Below are positions 28,727 through 57,568 of a DNA stretch of 64,000 nucleotides, piece by piece (the stretch's first letter is position 1; each line of letters opens with the position of its first letter). Location of the stretch: the NCBI RefSeq assembly GCF_006658505.1, contig NZ_VFUZ01000001.1:186001-250000 (forward strand), read 5' to 3'. Under the pieces are notes generated by a model. That model worked only from the letters and a program-made list of their open reading frames with translations. It ran no database searches and was not told the origin of the DNA. The DNA is from Mesorhizobium sp. B2-4-15. GTDB taxonomy: Bacteria; Pseudomonadota; Alphaproteobacteria; Rhizobiales; Rhizobiaceae. Position numbers and translations under genes: made by a program.

Positions 28727-28751
28727 GGAACAGCCGCGTGCTTGCGGCGTT
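28727..28751 (+). promoter_or_regulatory. Sigma-EcfG promoter for the 28780 gene
   Basis: GGAAC (28727-28731), 16 bp, CGTT (28748-28751). Exact consensus, ending 28 bp before the ATG. Confidence 0.75.
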
Positions 28752-44730: not shown

Positions 44731-46353
44731 TTGAAGAGACTTTTTCCAATCGTTGCGTTCATCGCCGTTGCGCTGATCAGCATGACCATGGCTGGGTTCG
44801 CCTATTTCGCGACGCAGGAAGCCGCCCGCATCAAGTTCGAAGCGGCGGCCGACGATGCACTCAACCGGATCGAGAGCCGGATCGACCTGCATCTGTCGCT
44901 GCTGCGGTCGACGCAGGCCCTGTTCGACGCCCGCAACGGCGACATCTCCCAGAACGAGTTCAAGGCGTTCTTCAATGCGCTGGATATCGACCACAACTTC
45001 GCCGGCCTGCGCGGCATCGGCTTCCTCCAGCTTGTCAAGACGGGCGACGAAGCGGCGGTCGAACGCGATATCCTGCACGATTTTGGCGCCAGCCATCCGG
45101 TCTATCCGGACTCGACGCAGCCCTGGCGCGCGCCCATCACGCTTTTCGAGCCGCTGGATCCCTCCAGCCAGTCCAGCATCGGCTACGATATGTTCAGCGA
45201 ACCGGTGCGGCGCGCGGCGATCGAGAAGGCAATGGCCGATGACCAGCAGCACGCGAGCGGGCTGGTGCAACTGGGCCAGGGCACGGGTGTGGCGCAGACC
45301 TTCACCGGCTTCCTGGTCTTCGTGCGGCTCAACGTCGAAACCGCGCCGGAGGTCATCAACGCATCGCGATCCTCGACCGCGGGCTTTCTTTACGCCGCCT
45401 TCCGGGCCCGCGACCTGTTCCAGATCGCGCTCAGCCGCGCGCCGCTGCTGCCGGTCAACACCGAGATCTATGACGGCGCGGTGAATGGCGACAATCTGCT
45501 GTTCCGGTCGGAGACGCCACCGGTTTCGGCCCTTGGTGACCGGCTGCTGGTCACCCGAAAGATCACGGTGGCCGGCCGTCCGTGGACCGTGCTGTTCAGG
45601 CCGACCAGCGCCTTCTCGCAGCCGTCGTCGCGCGCCATCCCGGTGATGCTGGGGCTGTTTGGTCTGCTGCTGGCGGGCGCCATCGCGCTGGTGGCCCGCT
45701 ATCAGGAGCGGGCCTACGAGGCGGCATCGCGCCTGCACGAAACGACCGAAAAGAGCCTGCTTGAAAAGGACCTGATGCTGCAGGAGATGAAACACCGCAT
45801 CAAGAATTCGATTACCAGGGTGCTGGCGATCGCGCGGCAGACGGCTTCGCGGGCGACCGATGTCAACGAGTTTTCCGCATCCTTCTCGGCCAGGCTGCAG
45901 GCCATGGCTGCGTCACAGGATATGCTGACGCGCTCGCGCTGGCAGAAGGCCGATCTCGCCGACCTCCTGCGCATCGAGCTCGGCCAGGTGTTCGGCAAGG
46001 AACTGCCCGACGAGCTCCTCTCGGGGCCGGAGGTGCTGCTCGACGAGACCACGACGCAGGCGCTTGGCCTGACCTTCCATGAGCTGGCGACCAATGCGCT
46101 CAAATACGGCGAAGCCGGCAATTCCGTTGGCGCGCTCAAGGTGGACTGGCTGCTGGAGGGGCGCGGGCGGGAGCGGACGCTGGCCCTGAACTGGCGGGAG
46201 GTCGGAAAGAAGAAAGTCGAGGCGCCGGCCGAAACCGGTTTCGGCACCAAGCTGATCGACCTCAATGTCACGCGCGAACTGCGCGGCACGATCAAACGCG
46301 ATTTTCAGGCCGATGGTCTGAAGGTGGAAATCAGAATTCCGCTGGTCGGCTAA
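44731..46353 (+). CDS. CHASE-domain sensor histidine kinase (HWE/HisKA_2 type)
   Basis: A 540-residue membrane sensor. Two helices (residues 1-25 and ~305-325) bracket a periplasmic CHASE domain with DIDHNFAGLRGIGFLQLVKT and ITLFEPLDPSSQSSIGYDMF. The cytoplasmic HWE/HisKA_2 kinase starts LMLQEMKHRIKNSITRVLAI (phospho-His in KHRIKN), then GLTFHELATNALKYGEAGN. A TTG start at 44731 is forced by an upstream in-frame stop at 44695 and no ATG; the SD is poor. It lies at the edge of the stress island. No sigma-EcfG site precedes it. Confidence 0.85.
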   Translation: MKRLFPIVAFIAVALISMTMAGFAYFATQEAARIKFEAAADDALNRIESRIDLHLSLLRSTQALFDARNGDISQNEFKAFFNALDIDHNFAGLRGIGFLQLVKTGDEAAVERDILHDFGASHPVYPDSTQPWRAPITLFEPLDPSSQSSIGYDMFSEPVRRAAIEKAMADDQQHASGLVQLGQGTGVAQTFTGFLVFVRLNVETAPEVINASRSSTAGFLYAAFRARDLFQIALSRAPLLPVNTEIYDGAVNGDNLLFRSETPPVSALGDRLLVTRKITVAGRPWTVLFRPTSAFSQPSSRAIPVMLGLFGLLLAGAIALVARYQERAYEAASRLHETTEKSLLEKDLMLQEMKHRIKNSITRVLAIARQTASRATDVNEFSASFSARLQAMAASQDMLTRSRWQKADLADLLRIELGQVFGKELPDELLSGPEVLLDETTTQALGLTFHELATNALKYGEAGNSVGALKVDWLLEGRGRERTLALNWREVGKKKVEAPAETGFGTKLIDLNVTRELRGTIKRDFQADGLKVEIRIPLVG

Positions 46354-46445: not shown

Positions 46446-46691
46446 CTAGTTGCAGCGCGCCGTGTAGATGCGGCCGTGGCGATCACGGTATTGGCAGTAG
46501 CCATTGCGCAGGTTGCGCACCAAAAGGCCGGAACCGGCACCAACAGCCGCACCGACCAGTGCGCCCTTGCCGCCGCCGACCAGGCCGCCGATACCGGCGC
46601 CAATCAAGGTACCGCCAGCCACATCCTTTTCGGTGCTGGTACAGCCGCTGACCGCGACCACCGCAACCATGGCAATAATCATTTTCCGCAT
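46446..46691 (-). CDS. Small glycine-zipper lipoprotein
   Basis: An 81-residue protein with a lipoprotein signal (MRKMIIAMVAVVAVSGC, lipobox VSGC), a glycine zipper (GAGIGGLVGGGKGALVGAAV) and a C-terminal NGYCQYRDRHGRIYTARC. It resembles small 17-kDa-antigen/YMGG-like outer-membrane lipoproteins of envelope stress. A start at 46706 is possible, but the signal peptide begins best at ATG 46691. Confidence 0.8.
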   Translation of the reverse strand: MRKMIIAMVAVVAVSGCTSTEKDVAGGTLIGAGIGGLVGGGKGALVGAAVGAGSGLLVRNLRNGYCQYRDRHGRIYTARCN

Positions 46692-46774
46692 AGAGTCACT
46701 CCTCACTTTGTGTCCTCACTTTAGTAAACTCCAACCGCCATTTAGCATGAAACAACGGTCTTTGCTGCTCGAAT

Positions 46775-47101
46775 TTATTGTTGGCTAAGGTAGTCTTTTT
46801 CTGGGCGCGCCGCGTTCGATGCCATGACGGGGCCGGAAATCGCCAGCGAAGCGTCGAGGCTGCCATCGGGGCGCACATTCCAGACGATCTGGTCGTAGTC
46901 GTCCTCGAGCGCGGGATCGACAGGAAGGCATTTGGCAACGACATGCTGCGCCTGCCCCTGAACGTCGCTCATGGCGAAGGGACGTTCGGCGGTGCATTCA
47001 TCGGCGGTTGCAAAAACGCTCACGGGAACCTGCAGTTCACGGCACTCGGCCATCGAGTTGGTGCAACCAATGACCAGCAGCAACGCGGCGATGTGTTCCA
47101 T
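46775..47101 (-). CDS. Secreted small protein, predicted general-stress gene
   Basis: A 108-residue protein with an N-terminal signal (MEHIAALLLVIGCTNSMAEC). The mature part has CRELQVPVSVFATADECTAE, AKCLPVDPALEDDYDQIVWN and VRPDGSLDASL. SD GAGAGGA on the minus strand fixes the ATG at 47101. An exact sigma-EcfG promoter lies 25 bp upstream. It may be a lipoprotein (IGC) or have disulfides. No named family recognised. Confidence 0.72.
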   Translation of the reverse strand: MEHIAALLLVIGCTNSMAECRELQVPVSVFATADECTAERPFAMSDVQGQAQHVVAKCLPVDPALEDDYDQIVWNVRPDGSLDASLAISGPVMASNAARPEKDYLSQQ

Positions 47102-47125
47102 GGGGAAATATCCTCTCGCCACAAC

Positions 47126-47151
47126 AACGGACCGCATCGCCAGAAAGTTCC
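47126..47151 (-). promoter_or_regulatory. Sigma-EcfG promoter for the 46775 gene
   Basis: Minus strand GGAAC (47151-47147), 17 bp, CGTT (47129-47126). Confidence 0.72.
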
Positions 47152-47281
47152 TTTTCCATCCAGGGACAGGCGAATAATGCCGGCCCGCCGGGAACAGATT
47201 TCCGCAATGGCCCCCGTCACCAGTTGGAACGGCGGCCAAGACCATATCGCAGCCGGCCCACAGCCAGGACGCCGATCGCGA

Positions 47282-47458
47282 TCAGGTGAACTGGAACAGC
47301 GCTGTCAGGAGGATTGCGGCGACCAGCGCCAATACAACAATGCCCGGTAACCGGTTACGGGCAGCGGGAAGCGATTGCGCGGACGCCTCGGGATCCAGGA
47401 ACTCGCCCATGGAAATTCGAGCGGCCTGTTCCAGTCTGTTCATGTCGGCAATCGTCAA
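47282..47458 (-). CDS. Small tail-anchored membrane protein
   Basis: A 58-residue protein: soluble N-terminus (MNRLEQAARISMGEFLDPEA) and one C-terminal membrane helix (LPGIVVLALVAAILLTALFQ). TTG 47458 is favoured because GGGAGG lies 6 bp before it. The internal ATG 47443 lacks an SD. A weak sigma-EcfG-like site (GGAAC-N16-CATT, 47522-47498) precedes it. Unknown function; its position suggests a stress gene. Confidence 0.6.
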   Translation of the reverse strand: MTIADMNRLEQAARISMGEFLDPEASAQSLPAARNRLPGIVVLALVAAILLTALFQFT

Positions 47459-47597
47459 GGGCGTCCTCCCGCACCGAGCTGTAAATGCTACTGCGGAAAT
47501 GTCCAAAAAGGCCGCAGGTTCCGCTGGTATCCGAGAAAAACAGCATTCACTCTTATGGTGAATAGCCGGTTAAGAATCGCTGCTTGTCGTGGCCCGC

Positions 47598-48632
47598 TCA
47601 TTGCGTATCGAAGTTGCTGTGCGGAACGACAAGGCGGTATTCAAGATGGCCATCGGCGATGTCGAGGCTCGCGGTTCCACTCAGGGATGCCGGCACCACC
47701 CGTTCCAGCGCGACGCTGCCGAAACGCTTTTGCTTGCCTCGGCCGCCGTTGGTGCCGATGGTTTCGGCCCATATGAGGGACAGGGTAACTTCACCGGTGG
47801 CGGCAGTGTTGAGATCGGCGGTCACCTCGACGAAACCATCCGGCCGGGACAGGGCACCGTAGCTGACCGAATTGACCGCGAGTTCATGCATCGCCAGGCC
47901 GATATGCAGCGCGGCGTTTGGATTGAGGTAGGGATTGGCGCCCCGGAAGCGAAGGCTATGCGGTGTGTTCGTCTCGTAGCGGCCGACCTGGCTCGCCACC
48001 AACTCATGGAGCGCCGCGCCGCGCCAGTTGGAGGATGTCACCAGATCCTGGGAAGAAGCCAGCGACTGAAGTCGGCCGCGAAAGCGCGTCAGGAAGTCGC
48101 TGATGCCATCGGAATAGCGACCGGTCTGGGTCGCGATGCTCTGGATGATCGCCAGGAGGTTCTTCGAGCGGTGGCTGACTTCGCGCAGAAGCGTTGTCAG
48201 CGTCTGTTCGCGCCGTTTCTGCTCGGTCGTCTCGACCATGGTGGTGACGACACCTTGCACGTCGCCGTCGTCGCCCCGGTCGGCATCAACCCAAACCTGA
48301 AACCAGCGCACGCCGTTCTCGACCGGCATACTGATCTCAAGGTGCTGAGGATCGCCAGTCACGACCACATCGTGCTTGGCGGCGCTGATGCGGTCGGCCT
48401 GCGCCAACGGCAGGATGCCATTGCCATCGGTATTGTCCGAAACCCAGGGCGCACGCATGTTGCGGGCCCAGACGGTCTTCATCTCGCGATCCTGATAAAG
48501 AACCGAGATTCCGGCATTGTAGAGGGCGTGGAGCAGAGCCCGGCCAAGCTGCATGCCGCTTTCAGCCGGATGCAGGGCGATGACCTCGTCGGTCCGTGCG
48601 CCTTCCGTTTTATCTGGAGTCCTGGAGCGCAT
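47598..48632 (-). CDS. PAS-HWE histidine kinase, predicted general-stress sensor
   Basis: A 344-residue soluble kinase. A PAS-like domain (~25-135) reads LLHALYNAGISVLYQDREMK ... VRWFQVWVDADRG. An HWE kinase core follows: LLREVSHRSKNLLAIIQSIA with the phospho-His, then IGLAMHELAVNSVSYGALSR. The C-terminal ATP lid region is short. An exact sigma-EcfG promoter lies 30 bp upstream, so it would be induced by the response that PhyR controls. PhyR-activating kinases are of the related HWE/HisKA_2 types, making it a candidate PhyR kinase by inference. Confidence 0.85.
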   Translation of the reverse strand: MRSRTPDKTEGARTDEVIALHPAESGMQLGRALLHALYNAGISVLYQDREMKTVWARNMRAPWVSDNTDGNGILPLAQADRISAAKHDVVVTGDPQHLEISMPVENGVRWFQVWVDADRGDDGDVQGVVTTMVETTEQKRREQTLTTLLREVSHRSKNLLAIIQSIATQTGRYSDGISDFLTRFRGRLQSLASSQDLVTSSNWRGAALHELVASQVGRYETNTPHSLRFRGANPYLNPNAALHIGLAMHELAVNSVSYGALSRPDGFVEVTADLNTAATGEVTLSLIWAETIGTNGGRGKQKRFGSVALERVVPASLSGTASLDIADGHLEYRLVVPHSNFDTQ

Positions 48633-48661
48633 CGGTCAATCTGTCCACCCAACTCACGCTG

Positions 48662-48686
48662 AACGGCTCACTGTCAAATGGGTTCC
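48662..48686 (-). promoter_or_regulatory. Sigma-EcfG promoter for the 47598 kinase
   Basis: Minus strand GGAAC (48686-48682), 16 bp, CGTT (48665-48662). Confidence 0.75.
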
Positions 48687-48814
48687 CAATGAAATTTCTT
48701 GGAAAGCCAGCCTTCAAAAGCGGTCCGCCGGACGGTGTCCCTTTGAAGGATACCGCCCGGCGGTGGCTGGAAACCGTTTGAGGGGTGCGGCTTCCAGTGT
48801 TCGCTTGGATGCGT

Positions 48815-48979
48815 TCACGCCCGTCTGAACAGGCCGGCAAGAAGCGAAATGACCAGGAAGGCGAGAAAGATGAAGAACAGAATCTGCGCGATCCCAGCAG
48901 ATGTACCGGCGATGCCGCCAAAACCAAGCGCGCCGGCGATGATTGCTACGACGAGAAATACGAGCGCCCAGTAAAGCAT
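48815..48979 (-). CDS. DUF1328 small membrane protein
   Basis: A 54-residue DUF1328 protein: two helices, [20 protein letters not shown] and [20 protein letters not shown], then GLFRRA. It is a small inner-membrane protein typical of stress regulons in proteobacteria. SD GGAGAAG fixes the ATG at 48979. It has an exact sigma-EcfG promoter 31 bp upstream. Confidence 0.9.
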
Positions 48980-49009
48980 GGTTCTTCTCCTTCCGAATGA
49001 TGCTGACAA

Positions 49010-49034
49010 AACGTGGGTGGTTGCGGTTTGTTCC
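49010..49034 (-). promoter_or_regulatory. Sigma-EcfG promoter for the DUF1328 gene
   Basis: Minus strand GGAAC (49034-49030), 16 bp, CGTT (49013-49010). Confidence 0.75.
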
Positions 49035-49095
49035 ACCCTTTGCCGAAAAAGACGACGCATGCAATGGTTCGGATCAATTCGCCGATAAGGACCGC

Positions 49096-49130
49096 AAAGG
49101 GCCGCCCGACGCATCGCATCGGGCGGCCCC
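49096..49130 (-). terminator. Rho-independent terminator of phyR
   Basis: GGGCCGCCCGA (49100-49110) pairs with TCGGGCGGCCC (49120-49130); on the minus strand TTTGC follows. Confidence 0.85.
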
Positions 49131-49170
49131 GAAGTCATACTGTCCGATCAGATCCGCGAAAGCCCTGAGC

Positions 49171-49965
49171 CTATGCGGCGGCCTTCGCCTGACGGTCGAA
49201 GAACAGCGCCTGGCTGATCAGCGCCTTGACCATGTCGGGATTGAACGGCTTGGTCACCAGGAAGGCCGGTTCCGGGCGCTCGCCGGTCAGGAGGCGCTCC
49301 GGAAAGGCGGTTATGAAGATAACCGGCACGGAGGTCGACGACAGGATTTCGTTGACCGCCTCGATGCCTGAACTGCCGTCGGCGAGCTGGATGTCGGCCA
49401 GCACCATCTTCGGCCGCGTCTTGCCGAACATCGTCACCGCTTCGGCGTGGGTACGCGCCGTGCCGACGACACGATGGCCGAGGCTCTCGACCATCTCTTC
49501 TATGTCCATGGCGATCAGCGGCTCGTCCTCGATGATCAGCACGTCGGTTGCCACCTGGCGGGAAATCTCATTGCTTGCCTGGGCAAGCAAGTCGGAGAAC
49601 TCCTGTTCGCCGACGTCGAGTATCTCGGCGGCCTCGTCCTCGCTGAAGCCTTCGACGGCAACCAGCAGGAAGGCCTGGCGGGGAAGCGGCGCGATCGCAT
49701 TGAGATTGGCGGCCGCGCGCTGTTCCCACGCCGATTGTGCCTGCTCCTGCGGCACGCGGATGGCGACCGAGGTGAAGAGCTTGGCGAAAACCTTGTACAA
49801 GGCGATGCGGTCGCTCGATGCCTCCGGGAAGATGTCGATATCGGCAATGATGGCCTCGAGCATCGCGGCGACCAGCGCGTCGCCGCTCTCTTGCGATCCC
49901 GAGACGGCACGCGAGAAGCGGCGCAGGAATGGCAGATGCGGAGCGATGGTGGCGGATAAGCTCAT
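49171..49965 (-). CDS. phyR: Anti-anti-sigma response regulator PhyR
   Basis: A 264-residue PhyR. The sigma-like N-terminal domain (1-135) has SDRIALYKVFAKLFTSVAIR and PLPRQAFLLVAVEGFSEDEA, mimicking sigma-2 and sigma-4. The receiver (141-255) has VLIIEDEPLIAMDIEEMVES, phosphoacceptor D191 (MVLADIQLADGSSG) and the lysine of VTKPFNP. When phosphorylated it binds NepR and frees EcfG. It is divergent from nepR-ecfG. Start at ATG 49965; the frame continues upstream without conservation. Confidence 0.96.
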   Translation of the reverse strand: MSLSATIAPHLPFLRRFSRAVSGSQESGDALVAAMLEAIIADIDIFPEASSDRIALYKVFAKLFTSVAIRVPQEQAQSAWEQRAAANLNAIAPLPRQAFLLVAVEGFSEDEAAEILDVGEQEFSDLLAQASNEISRQVATDVLIIEDEPLIAMDIEEMVESLGHRVVGTARTHAEAVTMFGKTRPKMVLADIQLADGSSGIEAVNEILSSTSVPVIFITAFPERLLTGERPEPAFLVTKPFNPDMVKALISQALFFDRQAKAAA

Positions 49966-50036
49966 GATGGACGTCTCCCTCACATGACGTGTTTGACTGA
50001 ATCGCAGGTCAAGCTGCTTGCAAGCCCCACAGGTAC

Positions 50037-50061
50037 AACGCGGCCTTTCCGAAAAAGTTCC
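50037..50061 (-). promoter_or_regulatory. Sigma-EcfG promoter of phyR
   Basis: Minus strand GGAAC (50061-50057), 16 bp, CGTT (50040-50037). Back to back with the nepR promoter; 9 bp separate the two -35 elements. Confidence 0.85.
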
Positions 50062-50070
50062 GCGTGATAT

Positions 50071-50095
50071 GGAACGAATGGGCGGCGACGGCGTT
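50071..50095 (+). promoter_or_regulatory. Sigma-EcfG promoter of nepR-ecfG
   Basis: GGAAC (50071-50075), 16 bp, CGTT (50092-50095). Gives positive autoregulation of the sigma factor. Confidence 0.85.
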
Positions 50096-50184
50096 GAGAC
50101 CCGGGATGGGCAACCAGACGAGGGGCCGCTTGCCTTGTGTTGAGTTGAATATGGGCGGCTTCGGTGCTGGAATATAAGGGCAAA

Positions 50185-50388
50185 ATGAAAAATATGACGA
50201 AAGATATTTTGGCTGGCGCCGCGGGCAGGCGCCGGAACGGGGTCGGCGATCCATTGGGGCCGAATTCCGAAATCGGGCGCAAACTCAAACAGTATTATGA
50301 CGAGCTGGTGTCCGACGATGTGCCGGATCGCTTTGCCCGGTTGCTCAGCCAACTGGAGCAGACCGAACCCGCGCAGAAAAAGGACTGA
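50185..50388 (+). CDS. nepR: Anti-sigma factor NepR
   Basis: A 67-residue NepR. The conserved helical core is EIGRKLKQYYDELVSDDVPD followed by RFARLLSQLEQTE. It sequesters EcfG until phosphorylated PhyR takes it. ATG 50185 follows AAGGG; ATG 50194 is possible. ecfG starts 4 bp after the stop. Confidence 0.93.
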   Translation: MKNMTKDILAGAAGRRRNGVGDPLGPNSEIGRKLKQYYDELVSDDVPDRFARLLSQLEQTEPAQKKD

Positions 50389-50392
50389 GGGC

Positions 50393-50944
50393 ATGGCAGC
50401 GGTCTCCCAAGGCTTCAAGACCGATCTGCTTGGGGCAATACCAAGCTTGCGGGCGTTTGCCGTGTCGCTGACGCAAAATGCCGACAAGGCCGACGACCTC
50501 GTTCAGGAAACGCTGGTCAAAGCCTGGGACAAGCATGAGAGCTTCCAGCCCGGCACCAATCTCAAAGCCTGGCTTTTCACGATCCTGCGCAATGAATTCT
50601 ATTCGCAAATGCGCAAGCGTGGCCGCGAGGTGCAGGACAGCGACGGCATCATGACGGCCAGGCTCGCGGTGCATCCGGCCCAGCACGGCCAACTCGACCT
50701 CAAGGATTTTCGGGGCGCTCTCGAGCAGCTTCCGGAGGACCAGCGTGAAGCCATCATCCTCATCGGTGCATCGGGCTTCTCCTATGAGGAGGCCGCCGAA
50801 ATCTGCGGCTGCGCGGTCGGAACGATCAAGAGCCGCGTCAGCAGAGCCCGCACACGGCTGCAGGAAATCCTGAAAATCTCCGGTGAAGACGAATATGGCC
50901 CCGATGCGATCTCAACTCAGGTCACCGGGACGGCTGCGCATTGA
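50393..50944 (+). CDS. ecfG: General stress ECF sigma factor EcfG
   Basis: A 183-residue ECF15-type sigma. Region 2: LRAFAVSLTQNADKADDLVQ and ETLVKAWDKHESFQPGTNLK, then WLFTILRNEFYSQMRKRGRE. Region 4: LEQLPEDQREAIILIGASGF and SYEEAAEICGCAVGTIKSRV. It directs RNA polymerase to GGAAC-N16/17-CGTT, the motif found at ten places in this window. It follows nepR by 4 bp, and the SD lies within the end of nepR. Confidence 0.95.
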   Translation: MAAVSQGFKTDLLGAIPSLRAFAVSLTQNADKADDLVQETLVKAWDKHESFQPGTNLKAWLFTILRNEFYSQMRKRGREVQDSDGIMTARLAVHPAQHGQLDLKDFRGALEQLPEDQREAIILIGASGFSYEEAAEICGCAVGTIKSRVSRARTRLQEILKISGEDEYGPDAISTQVTGTAAH

Positions 50945-50973
50945 AGCGCGATCCGGACGCGGCCGCATCGGTC

Positions 50974-51369
50974 TCAACCAGGGGAGCCTCGTCCGTAAGC
51001 CTGGGCCACCGCTTCGACGAGATCTTGGCCTGAATAGGGTTTGGAGACCAGCCTCACTCCCGGAAAGGATGCCTGGATCTCGTGCGCATCCGAATAGCCG
51101 GAGGCAAACACGAACGGGACGCCTGTTTCCCGCAAGCCGGCGGCGAATTCGAGCGTCGAGGCGCCACCCAGCATCAGATCGACGATGGCCGCGTCGAATT
51201 GCAGTGCGATCTTTCGGCCATCGACCTCGGTCAGGTTGCGGGCAACCACCACTTCATTGGCACCATGGTCGCGGCAAAGCTGCTCCACATCCATGGCAAT
51301 GAGGAATTCATCCTCCAGGACAAGAATTCGCAATCCGTCAAGCAAGTGAGGCACAGGCAATCGCTCCAT
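50974..51369 (-). CDS. Stand-alone response regulator receiver protein
   Basis: A 131-residue single receiver domain: LRILVLEDEFLIAMDVEQLC, phosphoacceptor D64 (AAIVDLMLGGAST) and the lysine of RLVSKPYSGQDL. No output domain. Such single-domain regulators near HWE kinases can act as phosphate sinks or relay elements. ATG 51369 is chosen; M at 51423 would add 18 unconserved residues. Convergent with ecfG, 29 bp apart. Confidence 0.87.
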   Translation of the reverse strand: MERLPVPHLLDGLRILVLEDEFLIAMDVEQLCRDHGANEVVVARNLTEVDGRKIALQFDAAIVDLMLGGASTLEFAAGLRETGVPFVFASGYSDAHEIQASFPGVRLVSKPYSGQDLVEAVAQAYGRGSPG

Positions 51370-51503
51370 GAAACATCGTGAGTCATGATCGCTATTTGGC
51401 GCATTGTCATTTAAAAAAGACATGCCGCCAGCGGCGGGATCGATCCCTGGCAAGCGATTGAAACCCGACCTGCCAGCTGGCAGGCTTTCGAAGAGGGGTC
51501 GAA

Positions 51504-52262
51504 ATGCCAGGCCAGAATGCGCATTCTTTTTCAAGCCAATATCCCTGCGAGAATTGCCCATTACGGCCCCTGCCGGTCTTCCGGGAGTTCGAAAAACAGG
51601 AGCTGGCCTTCATCAGCCGGTTCAAGAAGGGGGAACTCGCGGTCGACAAGGGGGCCACGGTCCTCGTGGAAGGAAGCCATAGCGCCCATCTCTACACCGT
51701 GCTGTCGGGATGGGCATTCCGCTACAAGCTGTTGCCGGATGGTCGCCGACAGATCCTCAACTATCTCATGCCCGGCGATCTCATTGGCCTGCAAGGCAGC
51801 GTCATGGGAGAAATGCAGCATTCCGTCGAGGCCCTGTCGCCAATGCTGCTATGCGTCTTCGAACGCGACAACCTGCATGAGCTCTACCGCAACCATCCGG
51901 GTCTCGCCTACGACATCACGTGGATCGCGTCGCGCGAAGAACGGATGCTGGACGAGAACCTGCTCAGTGTCGGCCGACGCAGTGCGATCGAGCGCGCCGC
52001 CTATCTTATCGCCTTCATAGGCAGCCGCGCCAAAGTTGTCGGACTGAGCGGCAAGCAGTCCATCCGGATACCGATCACGCAGCAGCACATCGCCGACACG
52101 CTTGGCCTGTCGCTGGTTCACACCAACAAGACGATCCGCAGATTGATGGACCGCAAGCTGATCGTCTGGCGCGACGGCGGCTGCGAGGTCGTCGACAATG
52201 AAGCGCTCAAGCAGCTCGCTGGCTGGGAAGGGCTGGGCGAGGGCCGCCGCCCACTGATCTGA
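51504..52262 (+). CDS. Crp/Fnr-family transcriptional regulator
   Basis: A 252-residue regulator. The N-terminus has YPCENCPLRPLPVF, a two-cysteine motif found in many rhizobial Crp/Fnr proteins but not the full four-cysteine Fnr cluster. The cyclic-nucleotide-like beta roll spans ~30-140 (LYTVLSGWAFRYKLLPDGRR, YLMPGDLIGLQGSVMGEMQH). The HTH_Crp has PITQQHIADTLGLSLVHTNK and TIRRLMDRKLIVWRDG. The signal is unknown. No sigma-EcfG site precedes it. Confidence 0.9.
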   Translation: MPGQNAHSFSSQYPCENCPLRPLPVFREFEKQELAFISRFKKGELAVDKGATVLVEGSHSAHLYTVLSGWAFRYKLLPDGRRQILNYLMPGDLIGLQGSVMGEMQHSVEALSPMLLCVFERDNLHELYRNHPGLAYDITWIASREERMLDENLLSVGRRSAIERAAYLIAFIGSRAKVVGLSGKQSIRIPITQQHIADTLGLSLVHTNKTIRRLMDRKLIVWRDGGCEVVDNEALKQLAGWEGLGEGRRPLI

Positions 52263-52324
52263 TGCGGCTAATCCCGGCAGATGGATGCGCGCCGGCAGGT
52301 TTTCGGCTAGTTTGTCCCGACGTC

Positions 52325-52349
52325 GGAACCTTGAGACGCACGGCGCGTT
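52325..52349 (+). promoter_or_regulatory. Sigma-EcfG promoter of the DUF883 operon
   Basis: GGAAC (52325-52329), 16 bp, CGTT (52346-52349), 30 bp before the ATG. Confidence 0.78.
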
Positions 52350-52379
52350 TGAAATCGAGCAATCACAAGGAGTTAAGCA

Positions 52380-52706
52380 ATGGCAACCGCCGCAGGGAAG
52401 ACCGCCAACGAGGCGCGGGCGAATTCGGATCTCGAAGCCGACATCAGGCAGCTTAAGGCCGATATCAACAAGCTCACCAAGCAGTTGGCCAAGACCGGCG
52501 AAGATGGCTACGGCACAGCGCGCCGTGCGGCGGCGGAAGGTGTCGAGCAGTTGCGCGCTCAGGGTGAAGCGGCCTTCGACAGCCTGCGCGGCAACGCAAG
52601 GGACATCGAGGCCCAGATCGTTGCAAGCGTTCGGGAAAAGCCCGTGACGTCCCTGGCGATCGCCGCCGGCGTCGGCTTCCTCTTCGCGCTGCTCGCGCGC
52701 CGCTAG
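52380..52706 (+). CDS. DUF883 (ElaB/YqjD-like) membrane-anchored protein
   Basis: A 108-residue protein: long amphipathic helix (EADIRQLKADINKLTKQLAK, EGVEQLRAQGEAAFDSLRGN) and a C-terminal membrane helix, VTSLAIAAGVGFLFALLARR. E. coli relatives anchor ribosomes to the membrane in stationary phase. SD AAGGAG fixes the ATG. With the following gene it parallels the E. coli yqjDE pair. It is under an exact sigma-EcfG promoter. Confidence 0.9.
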   Translation: MATAAGKTANEARANSDLEADIRQLKADINKLTKQLAKTGEDGYGTARRAAAEGVEQLRAQGEAAFDSLRGNARDIEAQIVASVREKPVTSLAIAAGVGFLFALLARR

Positions 52707-52717
52707 TTCCCCCGCAG

Positions 52718-53176
52718 ATGGGACTGCTGGCATCCCTGCTTTCGGGTTTCGCCTCCGGTGAAACCATGGCCGCCATACGCCGCGCGCGTACGGCGGCCAT
52801 CGTCTATGCGCTTGCCGCGCTGGCGGCGCTCTGCGGTCTCGGCTTTCTGGTCGGGGCAGCCTATATCTGGGTCGCCGCCCGCTATGGATCGCAGGTGACG
52901 GCACTTGGCTTCGGCATCGGCTTCCTGGTGATCGCCGGGCTCGTGCTTCTGAGCCATCGCTTGATGGCCGGTGCCCGCGCCCGCCGCGAGGCAATGCGGC
53001 GTAAAGCCGATATGAAGGCGATCGGGATCTCCGCCGCACTCGCGGTGCTGCCGGCATTGATTAAGGGAAAAGGCGGCCTCGGCGTCATTCTGGGTCCGGC
53101 CGCGGCACTCGTGGCCTATGCCATCTACCGCGAGAACGTGAAGCCCGACGATCCGGAGGCCGGGGGGCGGAAATGA
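52718..53176 (+). CDS. Phage-holin-superfamily-like (YqjE-type) membrane protein
   Basis: A 152-residue membrane protein with three to four hydrophobic segments (TAAIVYALAALAALCGLGFL, GSQVTALGFGIGFLVIAGLV and AIGISAALAVLPALIKGKG). It starts 11 bp after the DUF883 stop and resembles YqjE/holin-family-6 proteins in context. It is probably an inner-membrane partner of the upstream protein and co-expressed from its stress promoter. The N-terminal ~15 residues are polar. Confidence 0.78.
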   Translation: MGLLASLLSGFASGETMAAIRRARTAAIVYALAALAALCGLGFLVGAAYIWVAARYGSQVTALGFGIGFLVIAGLVLLSHRLMAGARARREAMRRKADMKAIGISAALAVLPALIKGKGGLGVILGPAAALVAYAIYRENVKPDDPEAGGRK

Positions 53177-53211
53177 CGCCGCCGCTCTGGTCCGCGATCA
53201 TGGCCAGTCAG

Positions 53212-54807
53212 TCACTTGGACAGATCTTCCAGCGGCATCGATATTTCGGCGAATACGCCTTCGGGCCGGAATTCATGGGTCACTTCGCTTGAAATGACCT
53301 TGGCCAGGCTGCGGCGGATGAGGATTGAACCAAAGCCGTGGCGCTCGGGCGGGGCAACCCGCGGGCCGCCGCTTTCCCGCCAGGTCAGCACCAGGCGCCG
53401 GGCGCCCTTCTTGCCCTGTGTCTTCCAGTCGAGATCGACCTTGCCGGATGCAACCGACAGAGATCCATATTGCAGCGCGTTGCTGGCCAATTCGTGCAGG
53501 ATAAGGCCAAGGCCGACGGCCTGATCGGGCGACAGCAGCAGATCGGCGCCGGAGATGGTGATGCGCGGCCGATCGGCCGTGTCGAACGGCCTGATCTCGA
53601 TCTGGACGAGTTCGCGGATGCCGATACCGCGCCACTCGCGGTCGGACAAGAGATTGTGGGCGATGCCCAGGGCCTGAAGCCGGGCGCCGAAAGCGTCGAG
53701 GAACTCGCTCGGCTGACGGGCATGACGCACGGTCTGGGTCGCCAACGCCTGGACGGTCGCCAGCGTGTTCTTGACGCGGTGGTTGAGCTCGCGCAGCAAA
53801 AGCCTCTGCCGTTCGTCGCCGAGCTTGCGCTCGGAGATGTCGTAGTTGACGCCGAAGATCAGTGTCGGCTTGCCGTCGCCATCGCGCTCGATGACGCGGC
53901 CGCGTGTCGCCACCCAGCGCGGCGGATGAAAACCTTTCACGCGATATTCGCCGAAATAGTCGTCGCTGCCGGTCAAGGCATCGCGAAAGCGGGTTTCGGT
54001 CAGGTAGACGTCGCGCGGGTCGATGGCGGCGAGGATGTCGCGTGCTCGCAGGCGGGTCGAGCGCGGCAGGTTGAACAGTTCCGACAGCCGGACATCGCAT
54101 TCGATCATGTCGCTGCGGATATCCCATGCCCAGCTGGCGAGCGAGGCCGCATCGAGCGCGATGGCGCGCCGTTTTTCCTCGCGCGCAAGTGCGGCCTCGG
54201 CGATAGCACCGCTGCGGGTCGCATCCTTCAAGGTGAACAGGTTGCCGGCAAGGCCGGCGAGAGTCCTCAACTGGTCGAGCCTGGCCCGGGATGGATAGGC
54301 GTGCGGCTTGCGGTCAAATACGCACAGCGTGCCGATGCTGGCGCCTGCGACGATGATCGGAGCGCCGGCATAGAAGCGCACATGGTGCTTGCCGGTGACC
54401 AGCGGGTTGGCTTTGAACCGTGGATCCGTCGTTGCGTCCGCCACCACCATGGGTTCGTCGCCAGCGGCGATCGTGTGGGCGCAAAAGGAGATGTCGGTCG
54501 CGGTCCCGGTCTCGTCCAGGCCGAAGCAGGACTTGAACCATTGCCGTTCGAGATCGACGAGCGTGACCAGCGCGACCGGCACGTGCATCACGGCCGCGGC
54601 AAGGCTGGTGATGCGGTCGAAATCCGGATCGGCCGCGGTATCCAGCATCTCCAGCCCATGCAGCACGGCCAGCCGGTCTTCGTCCCTCACCGCGCGCGCA
54701 ACCTTGGCCGGCAGACCCGGCGCTGTTTCGGTCCTGCTATTCACCCAAGTCCCCAATGTCCCGGCCTTCGCCGTCTTACCCGCCAGGCCCGGCGTTTCCG
54801 GAACCAT
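53212..54807 (-). CDS. GAF-PAS HWE-family histidine kinase
   Basis: A 531-residue soluble kinase. A GAF domain (~65-195) has FDRITSLAAAVMHVPVALVT and IVAGASIGTLCVFDRKPHAY. A PAS/PAC module (~210-335) ends in TLIFGVNYDISERKLGDERQ. The HWE core has LLLRELNHRVKNTLATVQAL (phospho-His), QAVGLGLILHELASNALQYG and HGFGSILIRRSL. ATG 54807 is given; GTG 54744 has a better SD (GGGGAC) and would remove 21 residues. No sigma-EcfG site in its own direction. Another candidate input kinase for PhyR. Confidence 0.87.
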   Translation of the reverse strand: MVPETPGLAGKTAKAGTLGTWVNSRTETAPGLPAKVARAVRDEDRLAVLHGLEMLDTAADPDFDRITSLAAAVMHVPVALVTLVDLERQWFKSCFGLDETGTATDISFCAHTIAAGDEPMVVADATTDPRFKANPLVTGKHHVRFYAGAPIIVAGASIGTLCVFDRKPHAYPSRARLDQLRTLAGLAGNLFTLKDATRSGAIAEAALAREEKRRAIALDAASLASWAWDIRSDMIECDVRLSELFNLPRSTRLRARDILAAIDPRDVYLTETRFRDALTGSDDYFGEYRVKGFHPPRWVATRGRVIERDGDGKPTLIFGVNYDISERKLGDERQRLLLRELNHRVKNTLATVQALATQTVRHARQPSEFLDAFGARLQALGIAHNLLSDREWRGIGIRELVQIEIRPFDTADRPRITISGADLLLSPDQAVGLGLILHELASNALQYGSLSVASGKVDLDWKTQGKKGARRLVLTWRESGGPRVAPPERHGFGSILIRRSLAKVISSEVTHEFRPEGVFAEISMPLEDLSK

Positions 54808-54824
54808 CCTAGCAAGGAACCGTT
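54800..54824 (+). promoter_or_regulatory. Sigma-EcfG promoter for the 54883 gene
   Basis: GGAAC (54800-54804), 16 bp, CGTT (54821-54824). It overlaps the first codons of the divergent kinase gene. Confidence 0.75.
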
Positions 54825-54882
54825 ACCCGACCATGATTTGCCGGATGCACCCCGGTAGTGCAAAACGAGACAAGGACCGACC

Positions 54883-55056
54883 ATGACCAAGATCATTCCC
54901 GAAAACAAAGCGCGTCAAGGGCGATGGGGCTGGCACGGTTTGCGTATTCTGATCGCTGCGCTGCTTCTGGCCTTCGCGGCCTGGGGCATTGCCGAAATCT
55001 ATGGCGAGGTGGCCAAGACCCCGGCGACAGAGCAAGGAAGCGCGCCAAGCGGCTAG
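54883..55056 (+). CDS. Small single-helix membrane protein, predicted general-stress gene
   Basis: A 57-residue protein: basic N-terminus (MTKIIPENKARQGRWGWHG), one membrane helix (LRILIAALLLAFAAWGIAEI) and a polar tail YGEVAKTPATEQGSAPSG. SD AAGGA lies 7 bp before the ATG, and an exact sigma-EcfG promoter lies 59 bp upstream. Positive charges before the helix predict a cytoplasmic N-terminus. Family not recognised. The promoter, SD and membrane pattern together make it a real gene. Confidence 0.78.
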   Translation: MTKIIPENKARQGRWGWHGLRILIAALLLAFAAWGIAEIYGEVAKTPATEQGSAPSG

Positions 55057-55085
55057 ATTTTCGGCCGCCATCGTTCGAGATCGCA

Positions 55086-56006
55086 TCAGGCGGCCTTTGC
55101 CTCGGCAATGCTGGCCGGCACCAGGACGTTGAGCGCGCCAGGCTGGATTTCAATGATCGTCTCACGATCGAGCCTGACCAGTTCGCCATCCATGACGGCA
55201 CGGAACTTCCTGCTGCCGGAATGAATCTTCAGAACCGTCCGATCGGATTGATGGATTTCGACATGCTCGTTGTCGCGCCATTTGCCGCGCGCCATGTTGA
55301 AGAAGAACTTGACGAGCTCGGCGCGTTGCTGCGCCACCGTGACATAGATGCCGAGCACGCCGCCCGCCGGATTGTCCGCATAAGGCAGGTGACCTTCGCC
55401 GAACAGGTTGTTGGTGACGCCGATACCTGATATGCGCGCCGTCATCTCGGCCTCGCCGATACTGAGCGTGACGTTCATGGCCGGCGGATTCTTGATTGTC
55501 GCCCAGGCCGCCTTGGCCGAAGCGCCGATCTTTCCCAGGCGCGAACCGAATTCCATCCTCTCGCGCAGCTGCACCATCCTTGCATGCATGCCTATGGAGA
55601 ACTGATGGATGAAGGGCTGGCCGTTGGCCGTAGCCATGTCGACCGCGATGATTTCGCCGTCGGCGAAGGACTTCAGCGCGGCATCGAGCGACTGCGGAAT
55701 GCCCAGACCACGTGCGAACAGGTTCATGGTGCCGGCGGGCAATATGGCAAGCGCTTTTTTCTTGCCCATCAACCTGGCCGCCGCGGCTGAAATGGTTCCG
55801 TCACCGCCACCAGCCAGCACGACATCGACGGTGCGGCGCGAAGCGGCATAGTCGAGAGTTTCCGCTACGTCCTTGCCGGCGACCACATCTATGCTGAGAG
55901 TGTGGCCTGCCGTTTCAAGCGTCTGACGCACCCTGTCGGAAAAAGCGGCGAGGTCGATGGTGCGCAAGGTGCCGCCGTCCTGGTTCAGCACCGCAGCAAA
56001 TTTCAT
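55086..56006 (-). CDS. Diacylglycerol/lipid kinase family protein (YegS/DgkB-like)
   Basis: A 306-residue DAGK_cat protein. The ATP-site motif is VLAGGGDGTISAAAARLMGK, then LAILPAGTMNLFARGLGIP. The C-terminal beta-rich half has FFNMARGKWRDNEHVEIHQS and AVMDGELVRLD. The enzyme would phosphorylate diacylglycerol or a related lipid at the inner membrane. ATG 56006 begins MKFAAVLNQDGG; an extension to 56030 is unconserved. An exact sigma-EcfG promoter 58 bp upstream makes it a stress gene, possibly adjusting membrane lipid composition. Confidence 0.87.
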   Translation of the reverse strand: MKFAAVLNQDGGTLRTIDLAAFSDRVRQTLETAGHTLSIDVVAGKDVAETLDYAASRRTVDVVLAGGGDGTISAAAARLMGKKKALAILPAGTMNLFARGLGIPQSLDAALKSFADGEIIAVDMATANGQPFIHQFSIGMHARMVQLRERMEFGSRLGKIGASAKAAWATIKNPPAMNVTLSIGEAEMTARISGIGVTNNLFGEGHLPYADNPAGGVLGIYVTVAQQRAELVKFFFNMARGKWRDNEHVEIHQSDRTVLKIHSGSRKFRAVMDGELVRLDRETIIEIQPGALNVLVPASIAEAKAA

Positions 56007-56063
56007 GCCCCGCTCCGTAAGCTCAACCAAAAGCCGACCGGGACGCGCCCAGCCAAGGCAAAA

Positions 56064-56088
56064 AACGCGGCGAAACGGGAAAGGTTCC
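56064..56088 (-). promoter_or_regulatory. Sigma-EcfG promoter of the lipid kinase gene
   Basis: Minus strand GGAAC (56088-56084), 16 bp, CGTT (56067-56064). Confidence 0.75.
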
Positions 56089-56171
56089 CGGCAGCGCCGG
56101 GGACCTGCGGCCGCATTTGGTGGCTGTCATCCACGAGCGTCGTGTTGGTCACGAATGCCAAGGCGTCTTTT

Positions 56172-56196
56172 GGAACAACAGCATGGTCACGACGTT
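56172..56196 (+). promoter_or_regulatory. Sigma-EcfG promoter of the PRC-barrel gene
   Basis: GGAAC (56172-56176), 16 bp, CGTT (56193-56196). Confidence 0.75.
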
Positions 56197-56287
56197 GTGA
56201 ACCTGTAGAAGACGCCGCGCCCGGGCCTCCCCAGCGACGGTTCAATCCGGACGCGGTGTGCACGAAATCATGCACGAGGAGACCATT

Positions 56288-57568
56288 ATGATCCGCACCC
56301 TTTTTGCCACCACCGCCCTCGCGACATTGGTCGCGACCGGCGCTTTCGCGCAGAGCGCGACTACTCCCGCACCCGCCGCACCCGCCGCTGAGCAGCCGGC
56401 AGCAACTCCGGTGCCGCGCGCCGAAGGCAGCATCGTCACCAACATCATTGGCGCATCCGTCTACAACGGCACTGGCGACAACGCCGAGAATATCGGCAAG
56501 GTCAGCGATGTCGTCTTCGACAAGGACGGCATGGCGAAGTCCGTCGTCATCGGCGTCGGCGGCTTTCTGGGCGTAGGCACGAAGAATGTCGCCTTCGACT
56601 ATGACAAGCTGCAGTGGGCCGAGAAGAACGGCGACCGCTGGCTGGTCGCACAGACAAGCAAGGACGAACTGAAAGCGCACCCGGAATTCGACAGCAAGGC
56701 CTATGCCCCGGCCCCTGCTTCGACGGATGCGGCAGCGCCCGCGACAACCGCGCAAAATTCCGCCGGCACGAATGCCGCGCCTGCCGAACCGGTGAAGCAC
56801 GCCGACGGCAACCTTGCGACCAACATCATCGACAAGGCCGTCTATAACGGCACCGGCGATGACGCGCAGAAAATCGGCAGTGTCAACGACATCGTGCTGT
56901 CCAAGGAAGGCAAGGCCCAATCCCTGGTCATCGGCGTAGGCGGGTTCCTTGGGCTCGGTGCAAAGAACGTAACCTACGATTTCAACAAGGCGCAGTGGGC
57001 GGAAAAGAACGGCGAGCGCTGGCTGGTGGCGCAGACCACCAAGGAAGAGCTGCAGGCACAGCCGGATTTCAACCGCAAGGCCTATGATCCGGCACCGGCG
57101 ACGACCGCTTCCAACGCACCGGCGGCAACTGCGCCGGCTACCACTACGGCTCCTGCCACCGCTCCGGCGAACAAGACAGCCGAGGCTCAGCCGGCGCCCG
57201 ACCAGACCCAGACCGCTGCCATCGACAAATCGACGTTGACCGCGATGCCGGTCGGCGAGATCAGGGCCGACGACCTGAAAGGCACCACCGTCTACGGCGC
57301 CAACGACGCCAAGGTCGGAACAATCGGGGATGTCGTGCTCACGCCAGACAAGAAGCCCGATGCGGTGATCGTCGATGTCGGCGGTTTCCTTGGCATCGGT
57401 GCGAAGGAAGTGGCGGTTGGCATGGACAATTTGAAATTCATGACCGACAAGAATGGCAAGAAATACCTCTACACCACTTTCACCAAGGAGCAGCTTCAGG
57501 CGCAGACTGCGTACGACAAGGGCAGCTATGCGCAGAAGCGCGACCAGCAGCGGATGATTGTGAAGTAA
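56288..57568 (+). CDS. Exported protein with three PRC-barrel domains
   Basis: A 426-residue protein with a signal peptide (MIRTLFATTALATLVATGAF, cut after AQ) and three PRC-barrel repeats. Each carries a V(Y)NGTGD or VYGANDAKVG start and a VVIGVGGFLGVGTKNVAFDY-like core, at about 50-140, 165-265 and 315-405. Ala/Pro/Thr-rich linkers (TASNAPAATAPATTTAPATA) join them. SD GAGGAG fixes the ATG at 56288. It is periplasmic or envelope-linked with unknown ligand. Exact sigma-EcfG promoter 92 bp upstream, divergent from that of the lipid kinase. Confidence 0.9.
   Translation: MIRTLFATTALATLVATGAFAQSATTPAPAAPAAEQPAATPVPRAEGSIVTNIIGASVYNGTGDNAENIGKVSDVVFDKDGMAKSVVIGVGGFLGVGTKNVAFDYDKLQWAEKNGDRWLVAQTSKDELKAHPEFDSKAYAPAPASTDAAAPATTAQNSAGTNAAPAEPVKHADGNLATNIIDKAVYNGTGDDAQKIGSVNDIVLSKEGKAQSLVIGVGGFLGLGAKNVTYDFNKAQWAEKNGERWLVAQTTKEELQAQPDFNRKAYDPAPATTASNAPAATAPATTTAPATAPANKTAEAQPAPDQTQTAAIDKSTLTAMPVGEIRADDLKGTTVYGANDAKVGTIGDVVLTPDKKPDAVIVDVGGFLGIGAKEVAVGMDNLKFMTDKNGKKYLYTTFTKEQLQAQTAYDKGSYAQKRDQQRMIVK

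Follow-up and report, generated by a model that had tools for sequence, protein, structure and literature searches.

Why should nine copies of one stress promoter lie within about 9 kb around phyR, nepR and ecfG in Mesorhizobium sp. B2-4-15, and would the sigma factor encoded among them be the one that reads them? The window considered here is a stretch of 64,000 nucleotides (contig NZ_VFUZ01000001.1, positions 186,001 to 250,000), and the island in question occupies positions 46446 to 57568 of it. In the general stress response, phosphorylated PhyR sequesters the anti-sigma factor NepR and so frees EcfG, an extracytoplasmic function (ECF) sigma factor; the response is amplified by the EcfG dependence of both divergent units (PMC8103513, PMC4814048, PMC3892343). 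Judged from its sequence, the island represents the locus for the general stress response in a Mesorhizobium-type genome, and the nine sites would be used by EcfG as proposed, a reading to which we give a probability of about 0.92. That the nine sites are EcfG promoters, and the locus a conserved one of this kind, is almost certain.

Clustering of the EcfG-type sites

The pattern GGAAC-N16/17-CGTT, searched exactly and on both strands, has 10 matches in the window. A shuffled window contains 0.93 on average, and 10 was not reached in any of 100 shuffles. Nine of the matches are those that an earlier note on this DNA had listed, at the same places, on the same strands and correctly oriented before genes; the tenth, at 28727 (+), lies beyond the island. 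All nine have an open frame downstream on the same strand, whose start codon lies 24 to 91 bases beyond CGTT. They head nine transcription units, which comprise 11 of the 16 genes placed between 46446 and 57568. The sites do stand before genes around phyR-nepR-ecfG, but the claim that they cover nearly every gene was too strong: GlyZip, tm53, the single-domain response regulator, crp and the GAF-PAS-HWE kinase lack an exact site.

The earlier note had also proposed a comparison with the genome background, and here the outcome is divided. The complete assembly, 6,092,473 bases in 61 contigs, contains 141 exact matches, or about 23 per Mb, compared with 170 for a control pattern read backwards. 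The bare count therefore shows no excess, genome-wide motif density was rejected as sole proof, and the motif alone is a poor predictor outside the island cluster. Locally, nine sites fall within 9,071 bp in which the genome density would predict 0.21 (Poisson probability about 2e-12). Elsewhere, 4 is the most seen in any 10-kb stretch among the 100 genome matches listed out of 141.

The phyR, nepR and ecfG genes

The phyR gene (49171..49965, minus strand) encodes an anti-anti-sigma response regulator of 264 amino acids, with a sigma-like N-terminal domain followed by a receiver (PF22029, PF22233 and PF00072, matched on the longer frame 49171-50487). Divergent from it on the other strand is nepR (50185..50388, plus strand), the anti-sigma factor gene, which matches PF18557 with an E value of 1e-15 on the frame from 50164; its start could also be 50194, or a GTG at 50164. 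It stands directly before ecfG (50393..50944, plus strand), whose 183-residue product contains Sigma70_r2 and r4_2 and scores 355 bits against NCBIfam NF009199 (cut-off 219). The name of that model does not include 'EcfG', and the assignment is made because sigma-factor models match and because nepR and phyR are adjacent. The best matches of this protein in 12 genomes of the same genus are 87-96% identical. EcfG-type promoters, both exact, precede the two divergent units: one at 50037..50061 (minus) before phyR and one at 50071..50095 (plus) before nepR-ecfG.

Beside ecfG lies a gene for a receiver-only protein, the single-domain response regulator (50974..51369, minus strand; PF00072 on a longer frame). 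It carries PFVFASGY, one residue off PFXFATG(G/Y). By Pfam, three kinases with an HWE_HK domain are encoded at the locus. The sigma factor, its regulators and candidate sensor kinases are thus packed together as the earlier note had described, with the reservation that a single kinase, HWE-PAS, has an EcfG site.

Conservation of the sites in relatives

Fifteen loci from relatives (12 from the same genus, 3 from other families) were combined with 80 named loci found by PhyR similarity, 69 of which are labelled Mesorhizobium. The counts use the 93 of these 95 loci that differ from one another at the phyR-nepR region. A site was scored if exact within 155 bases upstream of its gene, and loci in which the gene was unfound or its upstream sequence cut were left out of the denominators. 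At the nine positions an exact site is present in 701 of 771 cases. The nine genes that have no site in the window, crp aside, show one in 1 of 707. When matches below 40% identity or 60% coverage are dropped, the figures become 697/759 and 1/663. The control genes are ecfG (0/91), the holin-like gene (0/88), a sulfatase (0/72), a glyoxalase-like gene (0/79) and those for the CHASE-HWE kinase, GlyZip, tm53, the single-domain response regulator (1/93) and the GAF-HWE kinase. The phyR site is kept in 91 of 93 relatives and the nepR-ecfG site in 90 of 92.

With crp counted as a tenth position, 55 of the 93 loci retain nine or ten sites (ten in 31 loci, nine in 24); eight are found in 8 loci, seven in 10, six in 10, and five or fewer in 10. 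The bases between the boxes are much less constant. The 16-base spacers have a mean pairwise identity of 0.45 to 0.66 over the ten positions, and if the nine core bases drifted at this rate, no more than about 2% of sites would still be exact. Constant boxes around drifting spacers are what one would expect of EcfG promoters. In all, 758 of the 810 matches in these loci fall at the ten positions, and the other 52 amount to 27.8 per Mb, near the 23 of the genome.

Alternative explanations and a model

Could the cluster be a product of chance in a high-GC genome rich in GGAAC and CGTT words? That the exact pattern is no commoner genome-wide than its backwards control is what chance would predict, but the Poisson figure, the shuffles and the sites found in 701 of 771 orthologous cases make this exceedingly improbable. 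Another explanation, which we consider unlikely, accepts the promoters as real and has them read, wholly or in part, by a different ECF sigma factor, an EcfG paralogue. There are 11 ECF-like matches in the genome, EcfG included, so that the sites could be shared; the best of the others is 37% identical over residues 4-171 of 195 (G000:C8:87208). EcfG paralogues share targets in other species (PMC8103513). However, the boxes are canonical for EcfG, and an exact site precedes nepR-ecfG in 12 of the 12 same-genus loci. The odds are about even that common ancestry alone accounts for the place of the targets near ecfG and that the cluster as such has no function, an explanation compatible with EcfG use of the sites. 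The fluid gene content around them would fit it (in 47 of 88 loci the holin-like gene is followed by that for the GAF-PAS-HWE kinase, and the tm57 site is kept without the kinase), as would three loci from other families (L051-L053), which have 2-3 of the ten sites. The 55 loci that retain nine or ten sites speak against it, although conserved order by itself is no proof of benefit.

EcfG promoters of a conserved locus thus remain the preferred explanation, and several points weigh against it. Besides the other ECF-like proteins and the genome-wide count that does not exceed its control, the sites are not equally well conserved, as 30 of 91 loci lack the HWE-PAS site and 15 of 84 the PRC-barrel one. 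The locus is present in the 12 same-genus genomes, one of which has a reduced form (G005, locus L043) that retains just 3 of the ten; an exact phyR site is lacking in two further loci of the genus, L044 and L050. The loci are not independent, because they were chosen by PhyR similarity and come mostly from one genus. Of the controls, ecfG and the holin-like gene are expected to be promoterless, since they are second genes of operons.

If EcfG does read the sites, stress would lead the HWE-family kinases, three of which are encoded here, to phosphorylate PhyR. Phosphorylated PhyR would then take NepR from EcfG, and the freed EcfG-RNA polymerase would initiate at the nine sites. As phyR and nepR-ecfG would themselves be raised by EcfG, the loop would be self-amplifying, and one kinase would be raised as well. 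The local outputs would be mostly of envelope type: the DUF1328 protein, the DUF883 protein with its membrane partner, tm57, sec108, a lipid kinase and a PRC-barrel protein. The locus offers a strongly conserved EcfG promoter set in nitrogen-fixing symbionts, and it points to small uncharacterised envelope-type proteins (DUF1328, the 57- and 108-residue proteins, DUF883 and its partner) as likely local stress outputs.

Spacing of the phyR and nepR promoters

In the window, 9 bp separate the GGAAC boxes of the phyR (minus) and nepR (plus) sites, which are arranged back to back. Where each side has one site and no more, which is the case in 88 distinct loci, this gap is 8-10 bp in 81 (interquartile range 9-9) and 6, 7, 18, 19, 19, 19 and 22 bp in the remaining seven. 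The distances from promoter to gene vary more, from 53 to 112 for phyR (interquartile 66-73) and from 59 to 119 for nepR (87-93). The sequences of the 9-bp gaps are diverse, with 42 distinct among 56 and a mean identity of 0.48. Loci L120, L125, L126, L128 and L131, in which the gap is 18-22 bp, have an A-run in the gap near the phyR -35 box.

An order-wide survey of 397 genomes was made for back-to-back exact pairs, with gaps of 0-30 bp and then of 31-61 bp. Pairs with the shorter gaps occur in 90 genomes, as against 2, by our count, for the backwards control; the longer gaps occur in 61, as against 9, again by our count. Of the shorter-gap pairs, 106 in 89 genomes, the window's own left out, were tested by tblastn for linkage to PhyR. 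Fifty are linked, and these span 23 genera and 16 families. Their gaps are 5-10 bp in 35 pairs, 19 and 23 bp in the only two pairs between 11 and 26, and 27-30 bp in 13. Gaps of 11-26 bp thus account for 2 of 50 linked and 28 of 56 unlinked pairs (Fisher p 6e-8), or, with each genus counted once per class, for 2 of 24 and 18 of 37 (p 0.002). The 12 linked gaps in the range 31-61 are 31 (seven pairs), 32, 37, 39, 48 and 54 bp. The phyR-linked gap therefore has two modes, one near 9 and one at about 27-32 bp, roughly two helical turns apart. A single genus, g103, supplies 6 of the 7 gaps of 31 bp and 5 of the 11 of 29-30 bp.

Composition differs between the two classes. In the 12 linked pairs with gaps of 28-30 bp, gap positions 12-18 (counted from 0) are 75-100% A/T. 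TTTT occurs within the first six bases after the phyR GGAAC in 18 of 35 short-class sites and in 0 of 13 long-class sites, which leaves 17 of the 35 without such a tract. Where an A/T tract is present, it lies on the upstream side of the nepR -35 box at a distance of about 11-20 bp, a position at which contact by the alpha subunit would be expected. The eight other promoters share no common upstream A/T element, any such tract being weak and variable. With gaps restricted to those above 11 bp, R is 0.54 at a period of 10.5 for 15 genus-level values (p about 0.01 against jitter, with genera assumed independent). Helical phasing as a firm claim was dropped, this periodicity being weak and at most suggestive.

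One might tentatively regard the phyR and nepR promoters as a single two-headed unit whose -35 distances are set across the Hyphomicrobiales, either at about 9 bp or at about 27-32 bp with a central A/T tract roughly equidistant from both -35 boxes, and in a few cases at 18-23 bp; we consider this doubtful. If it were so, two holoenzymes could share one region of alpha-subunit contact, or could exclude or help each other, and the ratio of PhyR to NepR-EcfG would be set by the geometry of the DNA. The pattern is best taken as a lead and not as a finding, as shared ancestry or plain room for the contact site could explain it. The spacing may be the one new point here. A search of titles and abstracts found no description of it among the papers listed, with most subscription journals outside the coverage, so that it could already have been published. 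Should the spacing hold, the balance of PhyR and NepR-EcfG could be tested by changes of a few base pairs.

Some pairs were seen away from phyR or at a distance from it. This genome has a second back-to-back pair with a gap of 6 bp (locus L215, 9500-9556; G000:C18:14500-14556), and a like pair of similar sequence, also with a gap of 6, occurs in genome G117. With a third site about 1 kb away, the pair forms a three-site cluster (G000:C18:14500-15588). Five genomes of genus g42, family f35, contain pairs with a gap of 4 that are not linked to phyR (L233, L234, L236, L238 and L240), possibly a conserved divergent pair of EcfG targets. In genus g103 (G235, G272, G304, G332, G345 and G382) a second back-to-back pair, with a gap above 50, lies about 7 kb from phyR; EcfG sites may therefore cluster around phyR in other genera as well.

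Kinases and other genes of the island

The HWE-PAS histidine kinase (47598..48632, minus strand; 344 amino acids) matches PF07536 with an E value of 1.8e-23, and PAS_4 below the cut-off. Its exact site, at 48662..48686 (minus), is kept in 61 of 91 relatives. The GAF-PAS-HWE histidine kinase (53212..54807, minus strand) has GAF and HWE domains by Pfam and a weak PAS match, and an EcfG site in 0 of 57 relatives; its true start is probably downstream, because the longest frame overlaps the promoter at 54800. The third kinase, CHASE-HWE (44731..46353, plus strand; PF03924, PF07536), lies just outside the edge of the island and has a site in 0 of 80 relatives.

Most of the remaining sites precede genes for small proteins. 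The best conserved of all, at 49010..49034 (minus; 92/92), precedes the gene for a 54-residue DUF1328 membrane protein (48815..48979, minus; PF07043 on a longer frame, NF010228). The site at 47126..47151 (minus; 74/79), with a spacer of 17, precedes sec108 (46775..47101, minus), a small, putatively secreted protein of 108 amino acids with a signal-peptide-like N terminus by eye and no Pfam or NCBIfam match. Another at 52325..52349 (plus; 85/88) precedes the gene for a DUF883 (ElaB/YqjD-like) protein (52380..52706, plus; weak matches below curated cut-offs), which is probably in one operon with that for a 152-residue membrane protein without a family match (52718..53176, plus) that we presume to be holin-like. 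For the site at 54800..54824 (plus; 67/77), no frame of at least 60 amino acids looks convincing as a target. The candidate is tm57 (54883..55056, plus), an uncharacterised membrane-protein frame of 57 amino acids with one hydrophobic segment, which falls below the 60-residue cut-off for open frames; its promoter is kept in loci that lack the GAF-PAS-HWE kinase.

Two sites precede larger genes. That at 56064..56088 (minus; 72/75) lies before a diacylglycerol-kinase-like gene (55086..56006, minus), which encodes a predicted DAGK/YegS-type lipid kinase of 306 amino acids (PF00781, PF19279). The other, at 56172..56196 (plus; 69/84), lies before the gene for a protein of 426 amino acids with three PRC stretches (56288..57568, plus; PF05239 three times). 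NCBIfam has no name for sec108, tm53, tm57, the holin-like protein or the PRC protein. Genes without a conserved site include GlyZip (46446..46691, minus), glycine-zipper lipoprotein-like by PF13441 on a longer frame, with a site in 0 of 83 relatives, and tm53 (47282..47443, minus), a membrane-protein frame of 53 amino acids. A candidate tm53 promoter in the window, GGAAC-N16-CATT, was rejected, the exact site being found in 0 of 64 relatives and the one-mismatch form in 12 of 64.

The crp gene (51504..52262, plus strand) encodes a Crp/Fnr-type regulator (PF00027, PF13545) and represents a tenth position that is empty here. An exact site precedes crp in 56 of 73 relatives (52 of 64 after partial matches are dropped), L047, L048 and L056 among them. 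No crp promoter is found in the window: within 51370-51503 GGAAC is gone, and an upstream A-rich stretch remains. This gene may be a target that has left the EcfG regulon in this lineage. In L054 and L055 the sequence taken as crp upstream looks unlike it, probably owing to a partial match with a wrong start.

Comparison with known systems

A literature search that included the genus found no experiment on a Mesorhizobium EcfG among the papers listed, most subscription papers being outside its coverage. The EcfG1 regulon of R. etli has the identical motif, GGAAC-N16-CGTT, and was mapped with mutants (PMC3892343); the present island is read from sequence. In S. melonis Fr1 the motif is laxer, GGAAC-N17-20-GTT, and the EcfG-dependent genes include a PRC-barrel gene and a cAMP-binding regulator with EcfG motifs (PMC6599016). 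The FATGUY single-domain response regulators SdrG and MrrA carry PFXFATG(G/Y), to which the receiver-only protein comes near, with Ser for Thr (PMC5964349).

The closest likeness is to the PhyR-NepR-EcfG response of Alphaproteobacteria (ECF15), in which the divergent phyR and nepR-ecfG units are usually EcfG-driven (PMC8103513, PMC4814048). The three proteins, the divergent units, EcfG-type promoters on both and HWE kinases nearby are all common to that response and the island. The difference lies in the nine promoters within 9 kb; neither such a cluster nor the tight spacing is described in the available parts of these two accounts. The locus is a known kind of system, and a well-preserved example of it.

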